A stretch of 64,000 bases of DNA, taken from positions 1 to 64,000 of the forward strand of contig NZ_AZAY01000008.1 of the NCBI RefSeq assembly GCF_001021165.1, given 5' to 3'. Under the pieces are notes generated by a model. That model ran no database searches. It was not told where the DNA came from and saw only the letters and a list, made by a program, of their open reading frames with translations. Made by a program: the position numbers and the translations under genes. Position 1 is the stretch's first letter. Each line of letters opens with the position of its first letter. Below, one piece after another: positions 282 to 39,898 of the stretch. Source of the stretch: Marinitoga sp. 1197. Its GTDB lineage: Bacteria; Thermotogota; Thermotogae; Petrotogales; Petrotogaceae.

Positions 282-1749
282 ATTTTATATTTATTTTTCC
301 TTTTGAAGATTTTTTTATTTCATATAATAGTTCATCTGCTTTCTTTAAACACTGATATATTTTTAATGAGTTTTCACATACAACCCCACCAGACGAAAAA
401 GTATATCCAACTTCTTTTTTAAAATCCTTATTTATTCTAAAAAGTATATCAAATAAATCTTTACTATTTATTGATTCAAAAATTAAAACAAATTCATCTC
501 CTCCATATCTAAAAGTTTTATCCTCTCTTCTAATGTTTTTTAATACTATATTAGAAAAAGCTCTTATAATTTTATCTCCTTTGTCATGACCATAAGTATC
601 ATTAATTTTTTTAAAATCATCCATATCTATAAAAACGATCCCTATATTTTCTTTTCTGGATAATGTTAACGTCTCTATATATCTATCCAAACTCCTTCTA
701 TTGTAAAATCCTGTTAAAAAATCTTTTTCAGCTTCAAATCTTAAAGCATCTATAAATAATTTATTTTCCCATAATATTATTGTTTGTTTTGAAAAATAAT
801 CCAAAATATATAATTGATCCCTTGTAATCGGTTTAAGATTATATCTATTATCTGCTATTATAAAACCAAAATTTTTATTTTCACTTTTTAATGAACAAAT
901 TGCACATTCACCAATAATATTTAAAGCATTTGATATTTCAATAGGTAAAATCGAAGCAGGAATATGCATAGCTTTACCAGAATTTAATATCTCTTCAAAT
1001 AAGGTATTTTTTGATATAATGTCTTCATTTATTTTAAATGATCTTATTTCTTCTTCTAATGAACTAAAATATTCACTACCTTTATAATTCTTTATTTTTT
1101 CCTCAAAGTCTATATTAGATTCTTCCATATATTTCCAAACTCTATGAGCTTCTTCTTCATTTTTAAATCCTAATGCCCTAAAAACTTCATAACTATCTCC
1201 TTTTTTTTGAAATAATATTGCTCTGTTAAATGATCCCCCTATGTTTACTGTAATTGCCGTCAAATAAATGAATATTAATTTATCAATATTTGTTTCTTTT
1301 TTTGCTGCTTCTTCCAAAAAAGTTCTTGAATTTAGCATTACATATGATAATCCACTACCTTTTAAAAAAGTTGAAACCATTTCCAATGAAATTAAAGGTG
1401 ATGAATTTGAAATTATATAATACATTATTTCACTCTCAGATTTTAACAACAATTCATAATTTAATTTTAATTTTTTTTCTTTATATATTAGTTCTACTTG
1501 TTGCCTTTTAACTCCTTTCAAAATAACTATTTTTCTTATATTAAAAAATTTGAATATTCTTGCTATTCTAATAAATTTAAATATATTTTCTGGTACAAAA
1601 TTAGGATTTTCACAAATATAAATATCTACGTCTATGGATTCTATAAATTTACTAATATTTTCAATCAAAAAATAAAAACCTATGTCAAATTGCGTACTAT
1701 TTATATGTTTCTCATATAATTTTAATTTTTCTCGAATTCCAATGTCCAT
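280..1749 (-). CDS. GAF-like/GGDEF diguanylate cyclase
   Basis: Likely makes the second messenger cyclic di-GMP from two GTP. The C-terminal third is a complete GGDEF domain: FxDxDxFKxxND (metal and nucleotide binding), then the active-site GGDEF at about residues 416-420. RRED lies five residues before it, which is the RxxD inhibitory product-binding site. Residues about 220-320 look like a GAF-type sensor domain (D-N-R-Y-N-L-K-P-I-T-R-D-Q-L pattern); the N-terminal 200 residues are not recognised. No signal peptide or membrane helix is seen, so it is probably cytoplasmic. I start at the ATG at 1749, because the in-frame GTG at 1758 is part of the AAGGTGAT ribosome site. Monocistronic, 489 aa. 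Confidence 0.85.
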   Translation of the reverse strand: MDIGIREKLKLYEKHINSTQFDIGFYFLIENISKFIESIDVDIYICENPNFVPENIFKFIRIARIFKFFNIRKIVILKGVKRQQVELIYKEKKLKLNYELLLKSESEIMYYIISNSSPLISLEMVSTFLKGSGLSYVMLNSRTFLEEAAKKETNIDKLIFIYLTAITVNIGGSFNRAILFQKKGDSYEVFRALGFKNEEEAHRVWKYMEESNIDFEEKIKNYKGSEYFSSLEEEIRSFKINEDIISKNTLFEEILNSGKAMHIPASILPIEISNALNIIGECAICSLKSENKNFGFIIADNRYNLKPITRDQLYILDYFSKQTIILWENKLFIDALRFEAEKDFLTGFYNRRSLDRYIETLTLSRKENIGIVFIDMDDFKKINDTYGHDKGDKIIRAFSNIVLKNIRREDKTFRYGGDEFVLIFESINSKDLFDILFRINKDFKKEVGYTFSSGGVVCENSLKIYQCLKKADELLYEIKKSSKGKINIK

Positions 1750-1850
1750 AATTATCACCTTGTTTAAATTGTAATTAAAATTTTAAAATAGAAACAATTA
1801 AAAAAATTTTTTCTGCTATAATTTATTATAACAGAAAACGGGGTGATTAT

Positions 1851-3203
1851 ATGAAAAAAATATTTTTATTTCTATTTTTAATATTCCAAATTTCAATTTT
1901 TCCATTTAATTTATTAAATAATTATGATTTTTATTTTTATTTTCACAATCCACAATTATTTTACCATAATTTATATAGTAATATTTCATTTTTTAGATAT
2001 TTATATTCAAAAGAAGGAGCAGGACAAGAATCATTATATGAATATTTAATTAAAAATTTAAAAGATGATGAAATAAATGATGTAAATAAATTTATATCTT
2101 CAAATTTTTTGATTATATCTAACAATCATTTTGATATTAAAGATTTTTTCTGGATAAATCCTGCTCAGGATATAATAAAATTTCTTAAAAATTTTAATGG
2201 TTATATAATAACAGATTACAATAATCAGGAAAAGTTAATTAATTTGATAAAAAATCTTTTTAGTTATGAGGTAGAATATATTAAGCAGACAGGTGAATAT
2301 TTAGTAAAAGAGCTCAATTTAAAAGTTTATTTAATAGGGGGACATATTATATTTTATAATGATTATATATCTTTAGAGAAAATATTTGAGTTATTGGATG
2401 ATTTTAATTTAATAAAATTGAACATAAAAGATAATATTTATATATCATTTAAAAATCAGAAGTTTAATTATTTAGTTGAACCATTCCAGAAATTATATAT
2501 GTCAAAATATTCTGATAATATTTCTGGGAATGTAAAAATAAATTATTATAATAAAGAAATTATTTTTAATGTAGAAAGCTCATTAAAAATAATAAGCATA
2601 TCAAGATTTGATAAAAATTATAAAGTTTTTGGAGATTCATTAATTTACCTGAATTTAAATGAGATATCGGAGGTTTATAATATTACTTCAAAGATATTTT
2701 CGCCTATAGACGAATATTCTCGTAACTCATTAATGTATATTTTAAAATCGATTAAATATAAGGGGAATATATATTTGAGTGAATATTTTTCCAGAAAAGG
2801 TGATGGTATTTCTGTAATTATTCCTGGAGAAGTGTTTCTTGACAAAATAGAAGATAAAATGAAAAAATGGGGAATAGAAAGAAAAACTCTTGGAAACTAT
2901 TTTTATTATTCTATTTATTATAATAATATAGGTTCTGCTATATATTTATATGTAAACAAAAATAGTATGATAATATCTTCAATAGCTCCATCTTTGATGA
3001 AATATTTAATAGTTAGTTCAAAAAAATTTTCAAATTTGAGAATTTTCGATTCAAATGATATTCCGGACAATATTTTGTATATATGGTATTCAAATATAAA
3101 TGCTTTTTTTGAAGAATATATAGGAAATTCTGTGCCGGGTGAATTTATAATAATTAATGCATCAGATAATAATAGATTTATAGAAAAAATAATATTAAGG
3201 TAG
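1851..3203 (+). CDS. Secreted or membrane-anchored protein of unknown function, upstream of secA
   Basis: I do not recognise this 450-aa protein. It begins with a basic MKK and a hydrophobic stretch of about 17 residues ending near P-F-N, a probable signal peptide or N-terminal anchor. The rest is rich in Tyr, Phe, Asn and Ile with alternating polar and hydrophobic residues and no cysteine, which fits an exported domain in an AT-rich genome. The start has a GGGGTGAT ribosome site, and a TATAAT box lies at 1817-1822. secA follows nine bases after the stop, so the two are probably co-transcribed. A role in export or the envelope is only a guess from position. Confidence 0.6.
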
Positions 3204-24580: not shown

Positions 24581-25300
24581 TCATAACAATAATCTTTTTA
24601 ATATTTCCCTATATTCTTCATTAATATAAATCTTACCTTTTTCTCCAAATAATATTCTTTCTTTTTTAGAAGGTGAATTACGTGATATGGCACTTGTAAA
24701 GGCAGAAACCGAACGTGTATCTTTTAACTGTAAATCTTTCATTATTTCATCTTTAGAACTTTTCCCTTTTTTTACCATATATTTCAAAAATTCTCTTGTA
24801 GAGTCAGTTAATGAATTTATCAAACCCTTTAACTCTTCTTCAGACCATTTTTCGTCTGTTATTTTAGATGTTCCTATTAATTCTTTAAAAACCCTGATTC
24901 TTTTAGCAATATCATTTGATAATATTCCAAAAAGATATTCTGTTGGCAAATTTCCATAATCCAATAATTCAATTAACTCTATTAGAAGAGGTTCAGTTTT
25001 TAATATACCTTTATTTAATTCCAGTATATCAAAATTTATTTTTTCATTACCGTAAATCAAAATTTTCTTTTCAAAATCAACGGAGATACGTAAACGGTTA
25101 AATAATGATATAATAAATAAGGAAAGGAATTTATTATCAATTTCTCTGGGAAATGTTTCGGATTTTAAGAAATCCAATATTTCATAAAAATCACTTTTTG
25201 AATTCAATTTGTCAAAAATTTCTACTTTTAACTTTTCTTCTTCGTTCATTATATTATTTCCAAGAAAAGAATATAATGTTTTGAGTATTTCTTTGTACAA
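24581..25300 (-). CDS. Uncharacterised protein with a possible winged-helix C terminus
   Basis: I do not recognise this 239-aa cytoplasmic protein. It is mostly helical and charged. The last 80 residues (S-T-R-E-F-L-K-Y-M-V-K-K-G-K-S-S-K-D-E-I, then V-S-A-F-T-S-A-I-S-R-N-S) resemble a winged-helix DNA-binding domain, with a turn-helix pattern and a Ser/Arg-rich second helix. It could therefore be a regulator, but no family is assigned. The start is set at TTG 25300, five bases after GAGGTGAT; the in-frame GTG at 25309 is inside that ribosome site. It diverges from the RluA gene and converges on the purine operon. Confidence 0.55.
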   Translation of the reverse strand: MYKEILKTLYSFLGNNIMNEEEKLKVEIFDKLNSKSDFYEILDFLKSETFPREIDNKFLSLFIISLFNRLRISVDFEKKILIYGNEKINFDILELNKGILKTEPLLIELIELLDYGNLPTEYLFGILSNDIAKRIRVFKELIGTSKITDEKWSEEELKGLINSLTDSTREFLKYMVKKGKSSKDEIMKDLQLKDTRSVSAFTSAISRNSPSKKERILFGEKGKIYINEEYREILKRLLL

Positions 25301-25362
25301 ATTTATCACCTCGTTATAAATGTATGTTATTATATATATTATATCAAAAAAGGAGCGATTTT

Positions 25363-30160: not shown

Positions 30161-30192
30161 AAAAGCCCTCCATTCGGAAGGCTTTTATTATA
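30161..30192. terminator. Shared terminator of xth and the ferredoxin-fusion gene
   Basis: AAAAGCC (30161-30167) pairs with GGCTTTT (30180-30186), the stem continuing after one mismatch with TCC/GGA around ATTC. T-tracts occur on both strands. Confidence 0.8.
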
Positions 30193-32059
30193 TTTTAAAT
30201 ATTTCCATTAATTTCTCATCTAAAGTAGCGCTAATAATATTGTTTTTTATTAATATGTCATAAAAATTATACACTTTATCTTCAAGTTCTTTTCCAGATA
30301 TATATTTAAATGTTACTCTTTCAATAAATTTCTCCACGTTTTTTATTGGTGCCCTCATCATATCAAATGAAAGTTTTGCTGCTTCTTTCTTATTGCTATT
30401 TACCCATTCTATTGCAGCTTTTAATTCTTCTAAGACAATCTTTACAATTTCTGGATATTCTCTAACTAATTCTCCTTTAAATACAACCCCTGCATTTGGT
30501 AATAATCCAAATCCTTCGTTTATTTCATTCCATATTTTTCCATATGATAGTTCTGAATAAGTTATATTGCTTTCTTCTAATGCTTTTATCACAAATCCTG
30601 CTTCTGGTTCTCTTAATAAGACTGTATCTACTTTACCAGATAGAAAATCCATCATTATTTGTTTAGGTCTACCAAATGGATTTCCATAAGTAAATTCAAA
30701 ATCTTTTATATTGAGACCCTTTGCCTCTATTAAATATCTGGTTATTTTAGCTGGTGGTGCATCTTCAAAAAGTGGTATATGTATTTTTCTTCCTTTTAAA
30801 TCCTCAAGAGATTTTGCTATATAACCTCTTGTTAATATCGTAAAGTTATCCCAAACAAAAACAACAGGCATTTTCACATCCATATCTTTCAACTTCGAAG
30901 CAGTTATTAATGCTGAAAAGCTTATATCTGCTTTTTTATTTATTATCCATCCAAGATGCTTTTCTGTTTCTTCCCATATTTTTAACTCTTTTATATTTAC
31001 AACTTGTTTTAATTTTTTTGATTGTAATAATCTCATGATTATAGGATATCCTACAGGAGTTGCAGATTGTATTGTTATTGTTGGCTTATCAGAATAATTA
31101 TAATTATTAATATCATTTTCAATTCTGCGTGTAAAATATACTTTTACTTCATATGGATTAATTTCTTTAACTTCAGCATCAAATCCCATTCCATCTAGCA
31201 TATTTATTAAAGGGGTTGGAACAAAAGTTTGAACTAATATAAAACCTTCACCTGGATCTAATGAATAAGCTTTTTTTATAATTATATCAAATGGATCCTG
31301 TTGCATCTTTCTTACATCAAGAATTTCATAATCTTTATTGTTTTTTAATTTTGAAGGTTTATTATAGACAGAAATTCTTGTTTTATATGGATTAATTTTA
31401 TTTAGATTATATAGGAATTTATGAGATTCTATTACTTTTATTATTGGTTCAGGGTCTATTTCTCCCTCAAAAACTAATGATTTTCCAGGTTTTAAATTTT
31501 CTATTTGATTAACGATTAAAGTTAAAGTTTCAACCTCATATTTTTGAATTTTCATAATCGTTTCAGGTTCTTCCCATGCGATTTCGGTGCTGTTGTATTC
31601 TGGTTTCGTGTCTTTTATACATTCGGGAAATAATTTATATAATTCTTTTTCTAATCCTAATTCTTTATTTATAGCATGTAATATCTCGCATAAAGAAACG
31701 CCTGCCATTTTAGCAGCATTTTTGAATGTAGCATATTTTGCAATGGTATTCCACATTACAGGATTTTGCATTGTCTTAAATTTTGGTGATATTTTTAATA
31801 AAACCTTTTTTAAATGTGGATATTTTTCTAATGTTTCCCTGATTTTTGAATCTCCAGTAATTGGTTCACTTTTTTTTGAAAAGATAGCTTTAGTTGGACA
31901 AATATTCATTGCTCTCTGACTATTGCTTAATTCTGTTTTATTTTCAGGTTGTTTAAAAACTATAGCTTTCCCATTCTCTATTTTAAAATTTTCTGGAGCA
32001 GTTCTCACACATGCCTTGCAAGCTATACATTTTTCTTTTTCAACATTAAATTTCTCCAT
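30188..32059 (-). CDS. Ferredoxin - DUF1858 - DUF2249 (x2) - NMT1-like substrate-binding fusion
   Basis: A 623-aa protein with an unusual domain string. Residues 1-60 form a single-cluster ferredoxin (C11, C14, C17 and C54; the extra disulfide cysteines of Thermotoga ferredoxin are missing). Residues about 70-135 match DUF1858 (N-A-A-K-M-A-G-V-S-L). Residues about 170-330 show two DUF2249-like units, the second with L-D-V-R-K-M and D-P-G-E-G-F-I-L-V. From about 335 to the end it resembles SsuA/TauA/NMT1 periplasmic binding proteins (P-V-G-Y-P-I-I-M-R-L, then L-K-G-R-K-I-H-I-P). There is no signal peptide and no ABC transporter next to it, so it is probably cytoplasmic and may sense a small molecule or redox state. 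Monocistronic. Confidence 0.7.
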   Translation of the reverse strand: MEKFNVEKEKCIACKACVRTAPENFKIENGKAIVFKQPENKTELSNSQRAMNICPTKAIFSKKSEPITGDSKIRETLEKYPHLKKVLLKISPKFKTMQNPVMWNTIAKYATFKNAAKMAGVSLCEILHAINKELGLEKELYKLFPECIKDTKPEYNSTEIAWEEPETIMKIQKYEVETLTLIVNQIENLKPGKSLVFEGEIDPEPIIKVIESHKFLYNLNKINPYKTRISVYNKPSKLKNNKDYEILDVRKMQQDPFDIIIKKAYSLDPGEGFILVQTFVPTPLINMLDGMGFDAEVKEINPYEVKVYFTRRIENDINNYNYSDKPTITIQSATPVGYPIIMRLLQSKKLKQVVNIKELKIWEETEKHLGWIINKKADISFSALITASKLKDMDVKMPVVFVWDNFTILTRGYIAKSLEDLKGRKIHIPLFEDAPPAKITRYLIEAKGLNIKDFEFTYGNPFGRPKQIMMDFLSGKVDTVLLREPEAGFVIKALEESNITYSELSYGKIWNEINEGFGLLPNAGVVFKGELVREYPEIVKIVLEELKAAIEWVNSNKKEAAKLSFDMMRAPIKNVEKFIERVTFKYISGKELEDKVYNFYDILIKNNIISATLDEKLMEIFKI

Positions 32060-32345
32060 ATAAATTCCACTCCTTTATATCAATATATCAAATTAATTCG
32101 GATAATTTTTATCTAATTATATTATATACTATTTGTATATATTTTTCTGTAACTTAGATTACGATTTTATCTTTTGCCCTTTTAAAGAATTTATTTCAGA
32201 GATTAAAAGAAACACAAAGAAGAAATTCATTGCATGAAAAATTATTTGTACAAAATTTAAGTATTATAAATTACAAACAAAAAGCGTCTACGAAATTGTA
32301 GACGCTTTTTGTTTTGAGTTTTTATTAACCGAAAAATTTTGAAAA
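32060..32345 (-). other. Intergenic region upstream of the ferredoxin-fusion gene
   Basis: About 215 AT-rich bases between the amylase terminator and the fusion gene. I see no ORF. A TATAAT on the minus strand (32126-32121) could be the -10 box of the fusion gene, but no good -35 box is placed at the right distance. Confidence 0.35.
32275..32317. terminator. Very strong 17-bp hairpin terminator after the GH13 gene
   Basis: Bases 32275-32291 pair perfectly with 32298-32314 around a six-base loop (GAAATT). The A5 and T5 tracts are part of the stem, so termination is possible in both directions. It ends the minus-strand GH13 transcript. Confidence 0.9.
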
Positions 32346-34823: not shown

Positions 34824-37097
34824 ATGAAAATTGTAGGAAAAATTGCACAAAGAATAGAAGCAAAAGAAAAGGCGTATGGTGAATCATTGTATACACCGGA
34901 TTTATATTTTGATAGAATGCTGTATGCTGGTGTGGTTTATTCAAATATTCCACATGGAATATTAAAAAGCATAGATATTACTGAAGCTGAAAAGGTTCCA
35001 GGAGTTGTTAAAATAGCGACATATAAAGATGTACCTGGAACAAATAAATTTGGTGTTATTACAAAAGATATGAGATTTTTAATACCAATTGGTGAAAAAA
35101 TCAGATTTGAACATGATTCAATAGCATTAATAGCAGGAGAAACAAAAGAAGCTGTTGAAGAAGCTATTGAAAAAATACATTTTGAAGTTGAAGAACTTCC
35201 CGGAGTGTTTACGATTGAAGATGCCATTAAAGATGAAATAAAAGTAAATAATGAAAAAACAAATATAGCATTTCATAAAAAAATCAGAAGAGGAAATGTT
35301 GATGAAATTTTTAGAAATGCTGACTTAATAATAGAAAAAGAATTTGAAACAGATTACCAAGAGCAGGCGTATCTGGAAACACAGGGAGTTGTAGCATATT
35401 ATAATGGAGATGTAATGAAGATCTATGCATCAATGCAATGTCCGTTTTATGTTCAGGAAGATGTTTCTGAAATATTAAATATTTCATTTAATAAAGTGGA
35501 TGTTATTCAAATGGAAACAGGTGGGGGATTTGGTGGAAAGGAAGATGTTCCTTCATATATTGCATCAAAAGCAGCTTTGCTCTCTTATTTAACAAGAAGA
35601 CCAGTAAAACTGATATATGAAAGAGAACACGATATAAAAGAAACAAGTAAAAGACATCCTTCAAAATCATACTATAAAGCAGCTTTTAAAAAAGATGGAA
35701 CATTAATAGGGCTAAAAAGCAAAACATACCTTGATATGGGAGCTTATTCTACATTATCTCCTATAGTTATGTATAGGACATTAACTCATTCAGCGGGGGC
35801 ATATAAAGTTCCAAATGTATATGTGGATGTTTATGGAGTATATACAAATAAAGTTCCATGTGGGGCTTTTAGAGGATTTGGTTCTCCTCAGGTGCTATTT
35901 GCTATTGAATCTATAATGGATGAGGCTGCAGAAAAATTAAATATGGATCCATGGGATATACGATATAAAAATGCTCTTGAAGTAGGTGATGAAACATCTA
36001 CCGGTCACAAATTGGAATATTCTGTAGGAGCGAAAAAAACCCTTGAGAATATTAAAAGGTTGTCTAATTATGATAATTTAAAAAAAGAAATAAAAGAATT
36101 TAATAAAAGTAATAAATTGAAAAAGCGTGGGTTGGGTTGGTCTCATATTATATATGGCGTAAGTTTAGGAGCTGGAGGACAGCATCTTGATGCTTCAAAT
36201 TCAGAAGTTCATGTTTTTCCTGATGGAACTATAAACATAATGTTTGGTGGTACAGAAATTGGTCAAGGAGCCAAAACGGCAATTTCAATGATTGTTTCGG
36301 AGGTTTTAGGGCAAAAACTTGAAAAAATAAATGTATTGCAAACAGACACGTTTATAGTACAGGATAGTGGTCCTACAGTGGCTTCAAGAACAACGGTATT
36401 TAGTGGAAATGCAGCAAAAGATGCGGCTGAAAAAATAAAAAGGAATATAATAGAATTTTTATGTAAAAAATTTGATGTTGAAGAAAAAGATATAAAAATA
36501 AATTTAGGAATATATAAAATAAAAGATAAAGAATATTCATTTGAAGAGATAGCAAAAATGGCAAATGACGCAAATGTAAAATTAAATGAATCAGGTTGGT
36601 TTAAATCTCCGAAATTAAATTTTGATATGGAAAATGGTGTAGGGGAAGCATATATAACTTATACATATTCCACACAACTTTCATTGGTAGAAGTGGATAT
36701 GTTAACTGGAAAGGTTGAAGTTATAAAAATGTGGATATCTCATGATATTGGTAAAGCAATAAATTACGATGGAGTAATAGGGCAGATTCAAGGTGGTGCT
36801 GTTCAGGGTATGGGACATGCAATAATGGAAGAAATAAAACAGGTTAACGGAAAAATTATTACATCAAATTTTAATAATTACGTTATTCCCACTATAAAAG
36901 ATATTCCAGAGATTATACCTAATATAGTGGAAGAAGAGTTTCCATATGGGCCATTTGGAGCAAAAGGAATTGGAGAACCCTCATTGATGAGTGCTCCACC
37001 ATCAATAGCAAATGCAGTTTCAAATGCCATAAAAAAAAGAATTTCAAGAATACCAATAACTATGGAAAATGTAATATCCTTGATAAATGAAAAATAA
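34824..37097 (+). CDS. Molybdenum hydroxylase subunit (XdhD/XdhA-like), stand-alone
   Basis: A 757-aa molybdopterin-binding subunit of the xanthine dehydrogenase family. It has G-G-G-F-G-G-K-E near 233-240, G-A-F-R-G-F-G-S-P near 350, E-I-G-Q-G-A-K near 480 and the active-site Glu in GAKGIGEPS near 718. Unlike the first locus, no FAD or [2Fe-2S] subunit gene is adjacent, and unlike E. coli XdhD there is no fused iron-sulfur domain. It must borrow partners, perhaps XdhB/XdhC from 14245-15581, or use subunits coded elsewhere. The next two genes, a PLP enzyme and an oxopurine deaminase-like protein, suggest a purine-related substrate. Ribosome site GGAGGG. Confidence 0.88.
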   Translation: MKIVGKIAQRIEAKEKAYGESLYTPDLYFDRMLYAGVVYSNIPHGILKSIDITEAEKVPGVVKIATYKDVPGTNKFGVITKDMRFLIPIGEKIRFEHDSIALIAGETKEAVEEAIEKIHFEVEELPGVFTIEDAIKDEIKVNNEKTNIAFHKKIRRGNVDEIFRNADLIIEKEFETDYQEQAYLETQGVVAYYNGDVMKIYASMQCPFYVQEDVSEILNISFNKVDVIQMETGGGFGGKEDVPSYIASKAALLSYLTRRPVKLIYEREHDIKETSKRHPSKSYYKAAFKKDGTLIGLKSKTYLDMGAYSTLSPIVMYRTLTHSAGAYKVPNVYVDVYGVYTNKVPCGAFRGFGSPQVLFAIESIMDEAAEKLNMDPWDIRYKNALEVGDETSTGHKLEYSVGAKKTLENIKRLSNYDNLKKEIKEFNKSNKLKKRGLGWSHIIYGVSLGAGGQHLDASNSEVHVFPDGTINIMFGGTEIGQGAKTAISMIVSEVLGQKLEKINVLQTDTFIVQDSGPTVASRTTVFSGNAAKDAAEKIKRNIIEFLCKKFDVEEKDIKINLGIYKIKDKEYSFEEIAKMANDANVKLNESGWFKSPKLNFDMENGVGEAYITYTYSTQLSLVEVDMLTGKVEVIKMWISHDIGKAINYDGVIGQIQGGAVQGMGHAIMEEIKQVNGKIITSNFNNYVIPTIKDIPEIIPNIVEEEFPYGPFGAKGIGEPSLMSAPPSIANAVSNAIKKRISRIPITMENVISLINEK

Positions 37098-37130
37098 TAT
37101 TAAAAGACAGAACAAGGGGGTAGTTATAGA

Positions 37131-38546
37131 ATGAAAAGAGTGCCGATCGTAGGTCCAACATACGAAGAAATGTTACATCCTGAAAAAATTGATCCAGAAA
37201 TCAGAAAAAGAGCTATAGAAATGAAGGAAAAGGATCCGCTTCATCCAATTAATTTATTTAATATATCCTGGAAGGATGAAAATAATGAAATAAGGTATTT
37301 TGTTATGCCAAAAGAATTAACAGGTGTTGATGCAAATATTATAGTTTTATATGCTAAGGATTTCCCATCTGGAAGTCATAAAGTTGGAGCAACATATTCT
37401 GTATTAATGGAAAAAACAATAACCCATGAAGTAGATGCCTCTATTCATAAATTGGTATGGCCTTCAACGGGAAATTACGGTATAGGTGGAGCTTTTGTTA
37501 GTTCAAGAATGAATTATGATTCCTTAGTAATTTTACCGGAAGAAATGAGTCAAGAAAGATTTGACATAATTCGAAAATATGGTTCTGATGTTATAGCAAC
37601 TCCTGGATGCGAATCAAATGTTAAAGAAATTTATGATAAAACAAAAGAACTGAAACAAAATGATCCTGAACATATAAGAGTATTAAACCAATTTGAAGAA
37701 TTTGCGAATTATAGATTCCACTATTATGTTACTGGAAATACTATGATTGAAACAGTGAAAAGGTATCATATAGGAAATGAAAGAATTGCGGCGATTGTTT
37801 TAGGGGTTGGTTCTGCAGGAACAATTGCCAGTGGAGATAGAGTAAAACAGGAATTTCCAGAAGTTAAAATAGTGGCCATGGAACCGGTCCAATGTCCAAC
37901 AATTGCTTTAAATGGGTATGGAGGACATGATATTCAGGGAATTGGAGATAAACACGTTACATGGATACACAATGTTATGAATAACGATGCTGTTGTTTTA
38001 GTAGATGACGTTGATAGCAAAAAGATGTTACAGGTATTAACAGATGAAGAAGGGAAAAAATTCTTAAAAGAATTTGTGGATCCAGAAATGGTGGAATATA
38101 TTTCAGATAAGTTTGGTATTTCAGGTATTGCAAATGTTATTGGTGCTATAAAAATGGCTAAATTTTATAATCTAAAATCCGATGACAATATATTTGTTGT
38201 TGCTACTGATAATATTGCCAGATACCATTCTGTAATGGAACAAATGACAGAAACGTATGGTAAATTAGACAGAGCAGAAGCAAAATCAAGGGTTGAAAGA
38301 ATATTCTTATATCAGGAAACGTCCGGGATATTTGAAGGGGATAAATATAATAGAGAAAGATGGCATAATTTGAAATATTATACATGGATTGAACAACAGG
38401 GAAAAACAATAGAAGAATTAGATGCACAGAAAGAACAAAAATACTGGGAAGAACATCAAAAAAAGGTTCATGAAATTAACAAATTACTGGAACAATATAG
38501 AGAGGAACATAAAGCGACTTTAAGGAAGGTGTGGCTTGAAAAATGA
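37131..38546 (+). CDS. Fold-type II PLP-dependent enzyme of unknown substrate
   Basis: A 471-aa member of the tryptophan synthase beta/cysteine synthase superfamily. The PLP lysine is probably K84 in S-G-S-H-K-V-G-A; the phosphate-binding partner segment S-T-G-N-Y-G-I-G-G is near 113-121, and a Gly-rich G-V-G-S-A-G-T-I loop lies near 226. It is longer than cysteine synthases and does not match TrpB or threonine synthase. Fold-type II lyases such as diaminopropionate ammonia-lyase (YgeX) belong to E. coli and gut-bacterial purine clusters; this protein may fill a similar role, but it is not clearly YgeX. It is followed by the amidohydrolase with an ATGA overlap. Confidence 0.75.
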   Translation: MKRVPIVGPTYEEMLHPEKIDPEIRKRAIEMKEKDPLHPINLFNISWKDENNEIRYFVMPKELTGVDANIIVLYAKDFPSGSHKVGATYSVLMEKTITHEVDASIHKLVWPSTGNYGIGGAFVSSRMNYDSLVILPEEMSQERFDIIRKYGSDVIATPGCESNVKEIYDKTKELKQNDPEHIRVLNQFEEFANYRFHYYVTGNTMIETVKRYHIGNERIAAIVLGVGSAGTIASGDRVKQEFPEVKIVAMEPVQCPTIALNGYGGHDIQGIGDKHVTWIHNVMNNDAVVLVDDVDSKKMLQVLTDEEGKKFLKEFVDPEMVEYISDKFGISGIANVIGAIKMAKFYNLKSDDNIFVVATDNIARYHSVMEQMTETYGKLDRAEAKSRVERIFLYQETSGIFEGDKYNRERWHNLKYYTWIEQQGKTIEELDAQKEQKYWEEHQKKVHEINKLLEQYREEHKATLRKVWLEK

Positions 38547-39898
38547 GGAAATTATTTAAAAATATATCATATCTTGCAACATTCGATAATGAAAATACAG
38601 AATTGAAAAATGCATACATTTATATTGAAGATAACGTTATAAAGGATATAGGAACTGGTAATCCTGATATGACAGCAGATGAAATTATAAATTGTAAAGA
38701 TATGCTTATAATGCCAGGATTTGTAAATACTCATCACCATTTATATCAGTCTTTAACAAGAAATGTTAAAGGAGCTCAAAATGCAAAATTATTTGATTGG
38801 CTTGTATTCTTATATGAACGATGGAAAAATATAGATAGAGAAGGTTTTTATATAAGTTCAATTATAGCAAATTATGAAATGATGAAGACGGGAGTTACAA
38901 CTACTACGGACCATTTATACTTATATCCATATGGTTTAAATGAGGCAATAGATGCAGAAATAGAAGGAGCAATAAGAACAGGAATTCGTTTTCACCCAAC
39001 TCGTGGAAGTATGTCAATGAGCAAAAAAGATGGAGGTTTACCACCTGATAGTGTTGTGCAAACAGAAAAGGAAATAATAAAAGAGAGTATAAGAGTAATT
39101 GAAAAATATCATAATCCAGAAAAATATTCTATGTTGAGAATAGCATTAGCACCATGTTCCCCTTTTTCTGTTACAGCAGATCTTATGAAAGAAACTGTAA
39201 AAATTGCAGAAGAATATGATGTATTAATGCATACGCATGTTGCAGAAACACTTGATGAAGAAGAGTATTGTATAGAAAGGTTTGGAAAGAGACCAGTAGA
39301 TTATATGGAAGAATTAGGTTGGTTAAATCCTCGTGCATGGTTTGCTCATCTTGTATGGTTAAATGAATCAGATATAGAAAAGTTATCACAAAATGATGTT
39401 GGCATGGCACATTGTCCATCTTCAAATATGAGGCTTGGTTCTGGAATTGCTCCAGTAACGAAAATGAAAGATAAAATGCGAATAGGAATAGCAGTAGATG
39501 GAAGTGCAAGTAATGATACAAATAATATGATTGCAGAAATTAGGAATGCTTTGTTATTACAAAGGGTAAAATATGGTGCAGATGCATTAACAGTGAGAGA
39601 AGCATTGAGGTTAGGAACTGTTGGTGGAGCAAGAGTGTTAAGGATGGATGATTATATAGGAAGTCTAGAAATTGGTAAAGCGGCGGATTTTATAGGATTC
39701 AATTTAAATAGATTAGAATTTGCAGGTGGCCTTGATGATCCGTTGGGAGCTGTTTTAATGTGTGACGGAAAACAGGTTGATTTAAATGTTATAAATGGAG
39801 AAATAAGAATAAAAGATGGAAAAATTTTAGATGAAGAATTGCCGAAATTAATAGAAAGACATAATGAAATATCAAAAAAAGTTATAAATAGTTTATAG
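38543..39898 (+). CDS. Amidohydrolase, 8-oxoguanine deaminase / SsnA-like
   Basis: A 451-aa metal-dependent deaminase of the COG0402 group. The metal ligands are visible: N-T-H-H-H at 62-66, H-T-H-V-A-E-T near 231 (His and catalytic Glu), A-H-C-P-S-S-N-M near 290, and the Asp in A-V-D-G-S-A-S-N-D near 318. The stretch H-H-H-L-Y-Q-S-L-T-R followed by A-Q-N-A-K-L-F-D-W-L is close to that of characterised 8-oxoguanine deaminases, which convert 8-oxoguanine to urate and ammonia. Guanine, isoguanine or another aminopurine are alternatives. The start overlaps the PLP gene stop (ATGA), so the two proteins are made together. Confidence 0.8.
   Translation: MRKLFKNISYLATFDNENTELKNAYIYIEDNVIKDIGTGNPDMTADEIINCKDMLIMPGFVNTHHHLYQSLTRNVKGAQNAKLFDWLVFLYERWKNIDREGFYISSIIANYEMMKTGVTTTTDHLYLYPYGLNEAIDAEIEGAIRTGIRFHPTRGSMSMSKKDGGLPPDSVVQTEKEIIKESIRVIEKYHNPEKYSMLRIALAPCSPFSVTADLMKETVKIAEEYDVLMHTHVAETLDEEEYCIERFGKRPVDYMEELGWLNPRAWFAHLVWLNESDIEKLSQNDVGMAHCPSSNMRLGSGIAPVTKMKDKMRIGIAVDGSASNDTNNMIAEIRNALLLQRVKYGADALTVREALRLGTVGGARVLRMDDYIGSLEIGKAADFIGFNLNRLEFAGGLDDPLGAVLMCDGKQVDLNVINGEIRIKDGKILDEELPKLIERHNEISKKVINSL

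Follow-up and report, generated by a model that had tools for sequence, protein, structure and literature searches.

What does a substrate-binding-protein (SBP) fold do inside a cell, behind a ferredoxin? This question is raised by a gene of Marinitoga sp. 1197 in the 64,000-nucleotide stretch of DNA analysed here (the window), whose product joins a [4Fe-4S] ferredoxin domain, DUF1858 and two DUF2249 units to an SBP domain of the SsuA/NMT1 type. The first-pass annotation had read this five-part string without a signal peptide and without a transporter nearby, and had proposed either a cytoplasmic ligand- or redox-sensing protein or an enzyme built on a binding-protein fold.

Architecture and location of the protein

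The open reading frame begins with an ATG start codon, and an AAAGGAG stands at 32070-32076 (features in Table 1). By searching the encoded protein against Pfam profiles with the gathering thresholds as cut-off, we found that Fer4_13 (residues 6-59, E 2e-14), DUF1858 and one DUF2249 passed, whereas NMT1_2 on the SBP domain and the other DUF2249 fell below threshold, both being confirmed otherwise. The NCBIfam profile SsuA_fam also matched the SBP domain, below its curated cut-off (E 1e-6). In structure comparison by VIA-align, the N-terminal parts matched ferredoxins (Z 12.8), 2fi0 for DUF1858 (Z 7.8) and TusA/SirA-like proteins (Z 8-9). Taken together, Pfam, NCBIfam, an hhalign comparison between the DUF2249 units, the AlphaFold2 model and the NMT1 matches of relatives bear out the domain string as first proposed. 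This architecture is no chance fusion, since relatives from different phyla share it at 42-59% identity. Among open-licence papers, including those on nitric oxide (NO) or Marinitoga, we found none describing the full string; the protein family is undescribed but widespread.

Table 1. Features of the gene, its product and its promoter (window coordinates, all on the minus strand)
Feature	Residues	Position	Strand	Basis
Whole gene: Fer4 - DUF1858 - DUF2249 - DUF2249 - SBP (SsuA/NMT1 type)	623 aa	30188..32059	-	ORF, Pfam/NCBIfam, full-length homologues
Single-cluster [4Fe-4S] ferredoxin domain	1-62	31874..32059	-	Fer4_13; VIA-align Z 12.8 to P. furiosus ferredoxin 1siz
DUF1858	67-126	31682..31861	-	Pfam PF08984, E 5e-16; matches 2fi0
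Candidate metal or redox site	C124-x3-H128...C147	31619..31690	-	invariant in 55/55 homologues
First DUF2249-like unit, degenerate	166-234	31358..31564	-	below Pfam threshold; hhalign 96.8% to second unit
Second DUF2249 unit, TusA/SirA-like fold	245-312	31124..31327	-	PF10006, E 1e-12; Z 8-9
Type-II SBP domain	323-623	30188..31093	-	SsuA_fam; NMT1 of relatives; VIA-align
Predicted -10 box TATAAT		32121..32126	-	palindrome centre near -41.5, class-II activator position
HcpR2-type palindrome		32149..32162	-	GTAATCTAAGTTAC on the gene's strand (GTAACttagATTAC on the plus strand); one mismatch to GTAACnnnnGTTAC

The N-terminal domain has a ferredoxin fold and four cluster cysteines (C11, C14, C17 and C54), which are invariant in every aligned homologue possessing the domain, as in a single-cluster [4Fe-4S] ferredoxin. 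Around the end of DUF1858, C124, H128, N131 and C147 are kept in all 55 aligned proteins. The conservation of the two cysteines and the histidine suggests a metal or redox site; C147 adjoins a low-confidence stretch of the model (residues 148-152), and in an alignment the Thermus protein DrpB lacks all three equivalents.

The two DUF2249 units were matched by profile-profile comparison (hhalign 96.8%, E 3e-10) and show an identical strand-helix order in two AlphaFold2 models (mean pLDDT 88 and 90), which confirms the unit at residues 166-234 as a diverged copy of the recognised one. In the latter, the PF10006 match spans residues 247-311, and VIA-align returned YeeD, the SirA-like structure 3hz7 and TusA. 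At the place of the TusA CPxP motif stands FVPTPL, with P281 and P283 invariant and no cysteine. We therefore rejected a TusA-like sulfur relay, with which the fold alone agrees.

The fold of the C-terminal domain was confirmed by the AlphaFold2 model, in which residues 322-623 matched SsuA, PqqT, Thi5, NrtA, CmpA and 3hn0 (VIA-align Z 21-26), and by PF09084 (NMT1), which matched in 22 of 35 relatives. This domain is the most conserved part of the family, with 55 invariant positions. Its loops QSATPxxYP, WEETEKHxxW, WDNF, PLFxxAPP, PFGRP, LREPEA and PNAG keep the majority residue in 86-98% of cases and, judging from the type-II SBP fold, probably face the cleft. Such loop conservation is the pattern expected from selection for one specific ligand; a profile search of the domain against PDB sequences returned just a weak SsuA match, which did not indicate the ligand.

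We found neither a signal peptide nor a transmembrane helix in the 623 residues: mean hydropathy over 19 residues peaks at 0.02 within the first 40 residues and at 1.19 over the whole protein, and the ferredoxin domain already begins at residue 3. The flanking genes encode unrelated enzymes (exonuclease III-like, alpha-amylase, GNAT, xanthine dehydrogenase and others), and those scanned include no ABC permease. On both points the first-pass annotation was right. No NO-related gene and no nar or DrpA gene lies beside the Marinitoga gene in the window, and no ANTAR domain of the NasT type was found in the nine flanking genes scanned. The window also holds a purine-breakdown-like cluster at 34824-39898 (xanthine dehydrogenase molybdopterin subunit, PALP-family PLP enzyme and SsnA-like amidohydrolase) and, at 24581-25309 on the minus strand, a 242-residue open reading frame without a Pfam match at E 1e-6. 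The local context being uninformative, we therefore turned to the neighbourhoods of relatives.

Promoter, distribution and gene neighbourhoods

Rodionov et al. described HcpR2 as the Crp/Fnr-family protein that regulates hcp in Clostridium, Bacteroides, Thermotogales and Treponema; its box is GTAACnnnnGTTAC, its recognition helix has a proline at position 181 and, in Thermotogales, its predicted regulon consists of hcp only (PMC1274295). The palindrome upstream of the Marinitoga gene is the single match to the pattern GTAACNNNNRTTAC in the 64 kb of the window, where 0.10 would be expected. Genome-wide, this pattern occurs five times; three matches fall within coding genes, and the only two intergenic ones lie upstream of our gene and of the hemerythrin-hcp operon on contig 34. 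Because the total count is not above that of a reversed-pattern control, the argument for HcpR2 rests on position and spacing: both the box of our gene, GTAACttagATTAC, and that of the operon, GTAACcatgATTAC, stand 22 nt before a TATAAT. On the same contig (locus L127), a Crp/Fnr gene (776-1447) adjoins hcp (1483-3165) and carries GVTRPALSR, which is the R180/P181 recognition helix described for HcpR2 (PMC1274295). The hemerythrin-PAS and hcp operon with its HcpR2-type box spans L127:776-4368, and its hemerythrin gene appears to be an unlisted member of the regulon.

A perfect box also precedes the M. lauensis orthologue, with a box-to-TATAAT spacing of 22-23 nt across this and the window gene, and a box with one mismatch precedes that of G007; none was found upstream of the G002 gene, whose protein is 77% identical. 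Among the 75 family members with readable upstream DNA, five have a perfect box and eight a box with at most one mismatch, compared with means of 0.01 (maximum 1) and 0.44 (maximum 3) in 200 shuffled sets. The upstream regions of most homologues show no recognised NO-regulator box, although many sit after Rrf2-qNor genes. DNR-type boxes (TTGATATAAATCAA) upstream of the gene at L043 and L045 fit an NO regulator, the pattern being weakly specific in AT-rich DNA. Membership of the Marinitoga gene in an HcpR regulon is well supported, and HcpR probably acts there as an activator.

The family proved widespread, with about 90 homologues, mostly full length, yet rare in Thermotogota. In a scan of 84,980 prokaryote species, each represented by a single genome, we obtained 91 relatives, of which 80 were kept, from Bacteroidales, Chlorobiota, Desulfurellales, KSB1, Fermentibacteria, Clostridia, Izemoplasma and a single contig assigned to an archaeal bin. 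Within Thermotogota, 4 of 103 genomes carry the gene: the window genome, G002, G003 (M. lauensis) and G007. Its surroundings differ in G007, and G002 and M. lauensis share one setting beside the ribosomal L21 gene (L004; L003 and L007). In a tree, the Marinitoga copies group with a Eubacteriales MAG and ML8_F1 (SH-aLRT 82-95%, some branches being long); this grouping and the patchy distribution suggest horizontal transfer. We rejected a phage origin, since the viral scan gave small ferredoxins only, and a plasmid origin, since no plasmid protein covers 80% of the query. The small ferredoxin-like stretches lie on 36 IMG/VR viral contigs (L087-L122) and are 42-51% identical to the N-terminal domain. 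In M. lauensis the orthologue (L007:9999-11877) is divided into two open reading frames of 252 and 373 aa with a 4-base overlap in the linker that joins the DUF2249 units, which may be a strain frameshift, a sequencing error or a real split.

We then assigned by Pfam the neighbours within six genes of each homologue. A quinol-type NO reductase is found at 12 loci, often adjoined by a regulator of the Rrf2 type (NsrR superfamily); Hcp occurs at five loci (downstream), hemerythrin or hemerythrin-PAS at six, Rrf2 at 11 and Crp/Fnr at four. At L080, L083, L085 and L086 the ferredoxin domain is missing from the protein, and a separate 62-aa ferredoxin gene stands just upstream. At two of these loci, L085 and L086, a perfect HcpR2 box is present and the genes follow in the order Crp/Fnr on the opposite strand, then fdx, target and hcp. 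Five other loci (L016, L018, L022, L038 and L078) encode a fusion of 1143-1164 residues in which a PepSY_TM membrane protein precedes the target part, and the four helices with their positive charges place this part in the cytoplasm; elsewhere PepSY_TM is a separate neighbouring gene. We found no description of such a fusion in the literature, where PepSY-like proteins have been suggested to carry electrons across the membrane (PMC8238504). Another group of about 13 loci, mostly Bacteroidales, lies in MRP-ATPase/NifX/DUF59 clusters without NO genes. At nine loci (L011-L013, L015, L021, L023, L031, L040 and L072) we observed MRP/NBP35-type ATPases with ferredoxin domains, NifX-like proteins, DUF5320, cupin and DUF59 around the target. 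Across 294 genomes of one order, that of a Bacteroidales MAG, the family occurs in 25, NO reductase in 62 and both in 12 (Fisher p 0.0015, uncorrected for kinship); about half of the family genomes in this order lack this NO-reductase domain. Hcp was found in 21 of 54 family genomes, many of which are incomplete MAGs.

Proposed role and rival explanations

Promoter, neighbours and co-occurrence place the protein in the anaerobic nitric-oxide (nitrosative) stress response, as an accessory protein with a new domain combination. Our main reading, which we put at a little better than even (about 0.55), is a ferredoxin-linked cytoplasmic protein of this response under HcpR-type control. Related observations come from other systems: in C. 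difficile, hcpR controls the ferredoxin-like frdX and hcp, and knockdown of either leads to NO sensitivity (PMC12915319), and DUF1858 or DUF2249 genes have been tied to nitrogen oxides elsewhere (PMC6282519, PMC11218638, PMC6710368). Around the features computed directly (architecture, cytoplasmic location, the box and its spacing, NO-detoxification genes as recurrent neighbours, and the conservation of cysteines and SBP loops), we infer the following electron flow, C/H/C centre, ligand binding and reaction. An HcpR-type Crp/Fnr activator that also controls hemerythrin-hcp would switch the gene on when NO is present. The N-terminal [4Fe-4S] domain would take up low-potential electrons and hand them on to a centre in the region of DUF1858, with C124, H128 and C147 as candidate ligands, and to a ligand held by the SBP domain. 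The job of the ferredoxin module is likely to be docking and electron transfer, since some operons have a free ferredoxin gene instead. The SBP domain would close over a small polar cytosolic ligand, which may be the substrate or a signal gating electron delivery, and the protein, together with Hcp or NO reductase, would help to remove nitrogen oxides or to repair iron centres damaged by NO. In Bacteroidota, PepSY_TM might serve as the membrane electron partner.

The strongest rival is a cytoplasmic nitrogen-oxide sensor, with an SBP domain for nitrate, nitrite or another ligand, a cluster that senses NO or redox state and a DrpB-like core that signals to a regulator. We consider it possible, at well under even odds, and nothing separates it decisively from the main reading. 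In Thermus thermophilus, nitrate-respiration promoters are deregulated when the cytoplasmic DUF1858-DUF2249-DUF2249 protein DrpB is lost (PMC6282519). NasS, an NrtA-like protein without a signal peptide, senses nitrate/nitrite in the cytoplasm (PMC3795266), and the cytoplasmic regulatory domains of CmpC/NrtC are among the VIA-align matches (Z 21-22). However, the Marinitoga protein has no DNA-binding, RNA-binding or known signalling domain and its gene lies away from nitrate-respiration genes; DrpB, for its part, does not have the three invariant residues. The separate small ferredoxin gene of some operons suits electron transfer better, and at the promoters of the Marinitoga gene and the fdx-target-hcp loci NO is likely to be sensed already by an HcpR-type regulator. 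Because an output domain is missing and an HcpR-type regulator is likely to act at the promoter, the balance tips to a redox protein. Of the initial proposal, the cytoplasmic location and a ligand- or redox-related role hold, given the missing signal peptide, the topology of the fusions, the invariant cysteines and the cleft loops; between sensor and enzyme, which it had left open, we keep the sensor as a rival, as nothing in the analysis points to a transcriptional output.

Catalysis by the SBP-fold domain itself, with the ferredoxin as electron source, is unlikely in our view. Thi5, MqnD, MqnA and DszB are among the structural matches, and the presumed cleft loops are rich in invariant charged residues (E364, E366, H368, D404, R464, R483, E484 and E486). 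However, conserved clefts are common to all SBPs and no enzyme subfamily leads by sequence. Moreover, when Thi5 was aligned by hand on the secondary structure of the model, its K62 and H66 fell on S382 and T386, and the CCCFC loop was missing. We hold as equally improbable a non-NO-specific handling of Fe-S or metal cofactors, in partnership with MRP/NBP35-type ATPases, NifX-like and DUF59 proteins. The large Bacteroidales group in such clusters speaks for it, and means that the common theme of the family may be Fe-S proteins and not NO; but the HcpR2 boxes, the NO-reductase and Hcp operons and the solitary Marinitoga gene would then be left unexplained. Far less probable still is an exported SBP of an ABC importer that merely gained N-terminal domains. 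Its fold and a remote resemblance, at 24-28%, to exported SBPs encoded in ABC operons, some of which lie next to NnrS, Crp/Fnr or hcp, are set against the lack of a signal peptide and of a nearby permease and the cytoplasmic topology of the PepSY fusions, and we rejected it. Exported SBP/permease/ATPase operons beside NnrS, Crp/Fnr, hcp, ferritin or heme-uptake genes occur on Nitratiruptor, Arcobacter and Paraclostridium plasmids (L123, L124 and L126).

Returning to a ferredoxin-linked protein of the NO response, a broader version of it is tentative, and we rate it only slightly above the sensor. The family might form a widespread undescribed arm of anaerobic NO defence, in which a cytoplasmic SBP domain takes up a ligand related to nitrogen oxides and a new C/H/C centre at DUF1858, driven by the ferredoxin, acts on the ligand or on damaged iron centres. 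DUF1858 and DUF2249, both poorly understood, recur in denitrification and NO regulons, and the fusion offers a concrete system in which to learn their function, with an HcpR-type box in a cultivable anaerobe and, elsewhere, a ferredoxin gene on one side and hcp on the other. The predicted HcpR2 regulon of Thermotogales is extended as well, and a further case is added of a binding-protein fold at work inside the cell.

Comparison with known systems

The periplasmic SBPs SsuA, NMT1 and BDI_1369 (3hn0) share the fold of residues 323-623 (VIA-align Z 20-26) at 10-17% identity but, unlike the Marinitoga protein, are exported and work with ABC permeases. NrtA agrees in structure only (Z 21.5, 12% identity). 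The HMP-P synthase Thi5, the best Foldseek match, is a cytoplasmic SBP-fold protein as here; its active-site residues are absent from the Marinitoga protein, and we rejected a Thi5-like pyrimidine synthase despite that match. NasS and the C-terminal regulatory domain of NrtC/CmpC likewise have an SBP fold in the cytoplasm without export, but NasS acts with NasT and the NrtC/CmpC domain with the transporter ATPase, and both lack a ferredoxin, DUF1858 and DUF2249. The TusA/SirA sulfurtransferases have the fold of the second DUF2249 unit, but their catalytic cysteine at the PxP motif is absent here.

DrpB is cytoplasmic too and has the three middle domains in identical order, at about 23% identity. 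It is encoded downstream of a nitrate-reductase operon and lacks the ferredoxin, the SBP domain and C124/H128/C147. We did not file the Marinitoga protein as a DrpB, given its extra Fer4 and SBP domains and the absence of a DrpA/nar context.

A 62-aa ferredoxin near hcp on a Paraclostridium plasmid is 33% identical to our ferredoxin domain. In the FrdX-Hcp pair of the HcpR regulon (PMC1274295, PMC12915319), a ferredoxin protein stands under an HcpR-type box, comparable to the fdx-target-hcp order at L085 and L086. The Marinitoga protein resembles this pair in regulation and gene order, and the 623-aa fusion is a new candidate member of the HcpR2 regulon.
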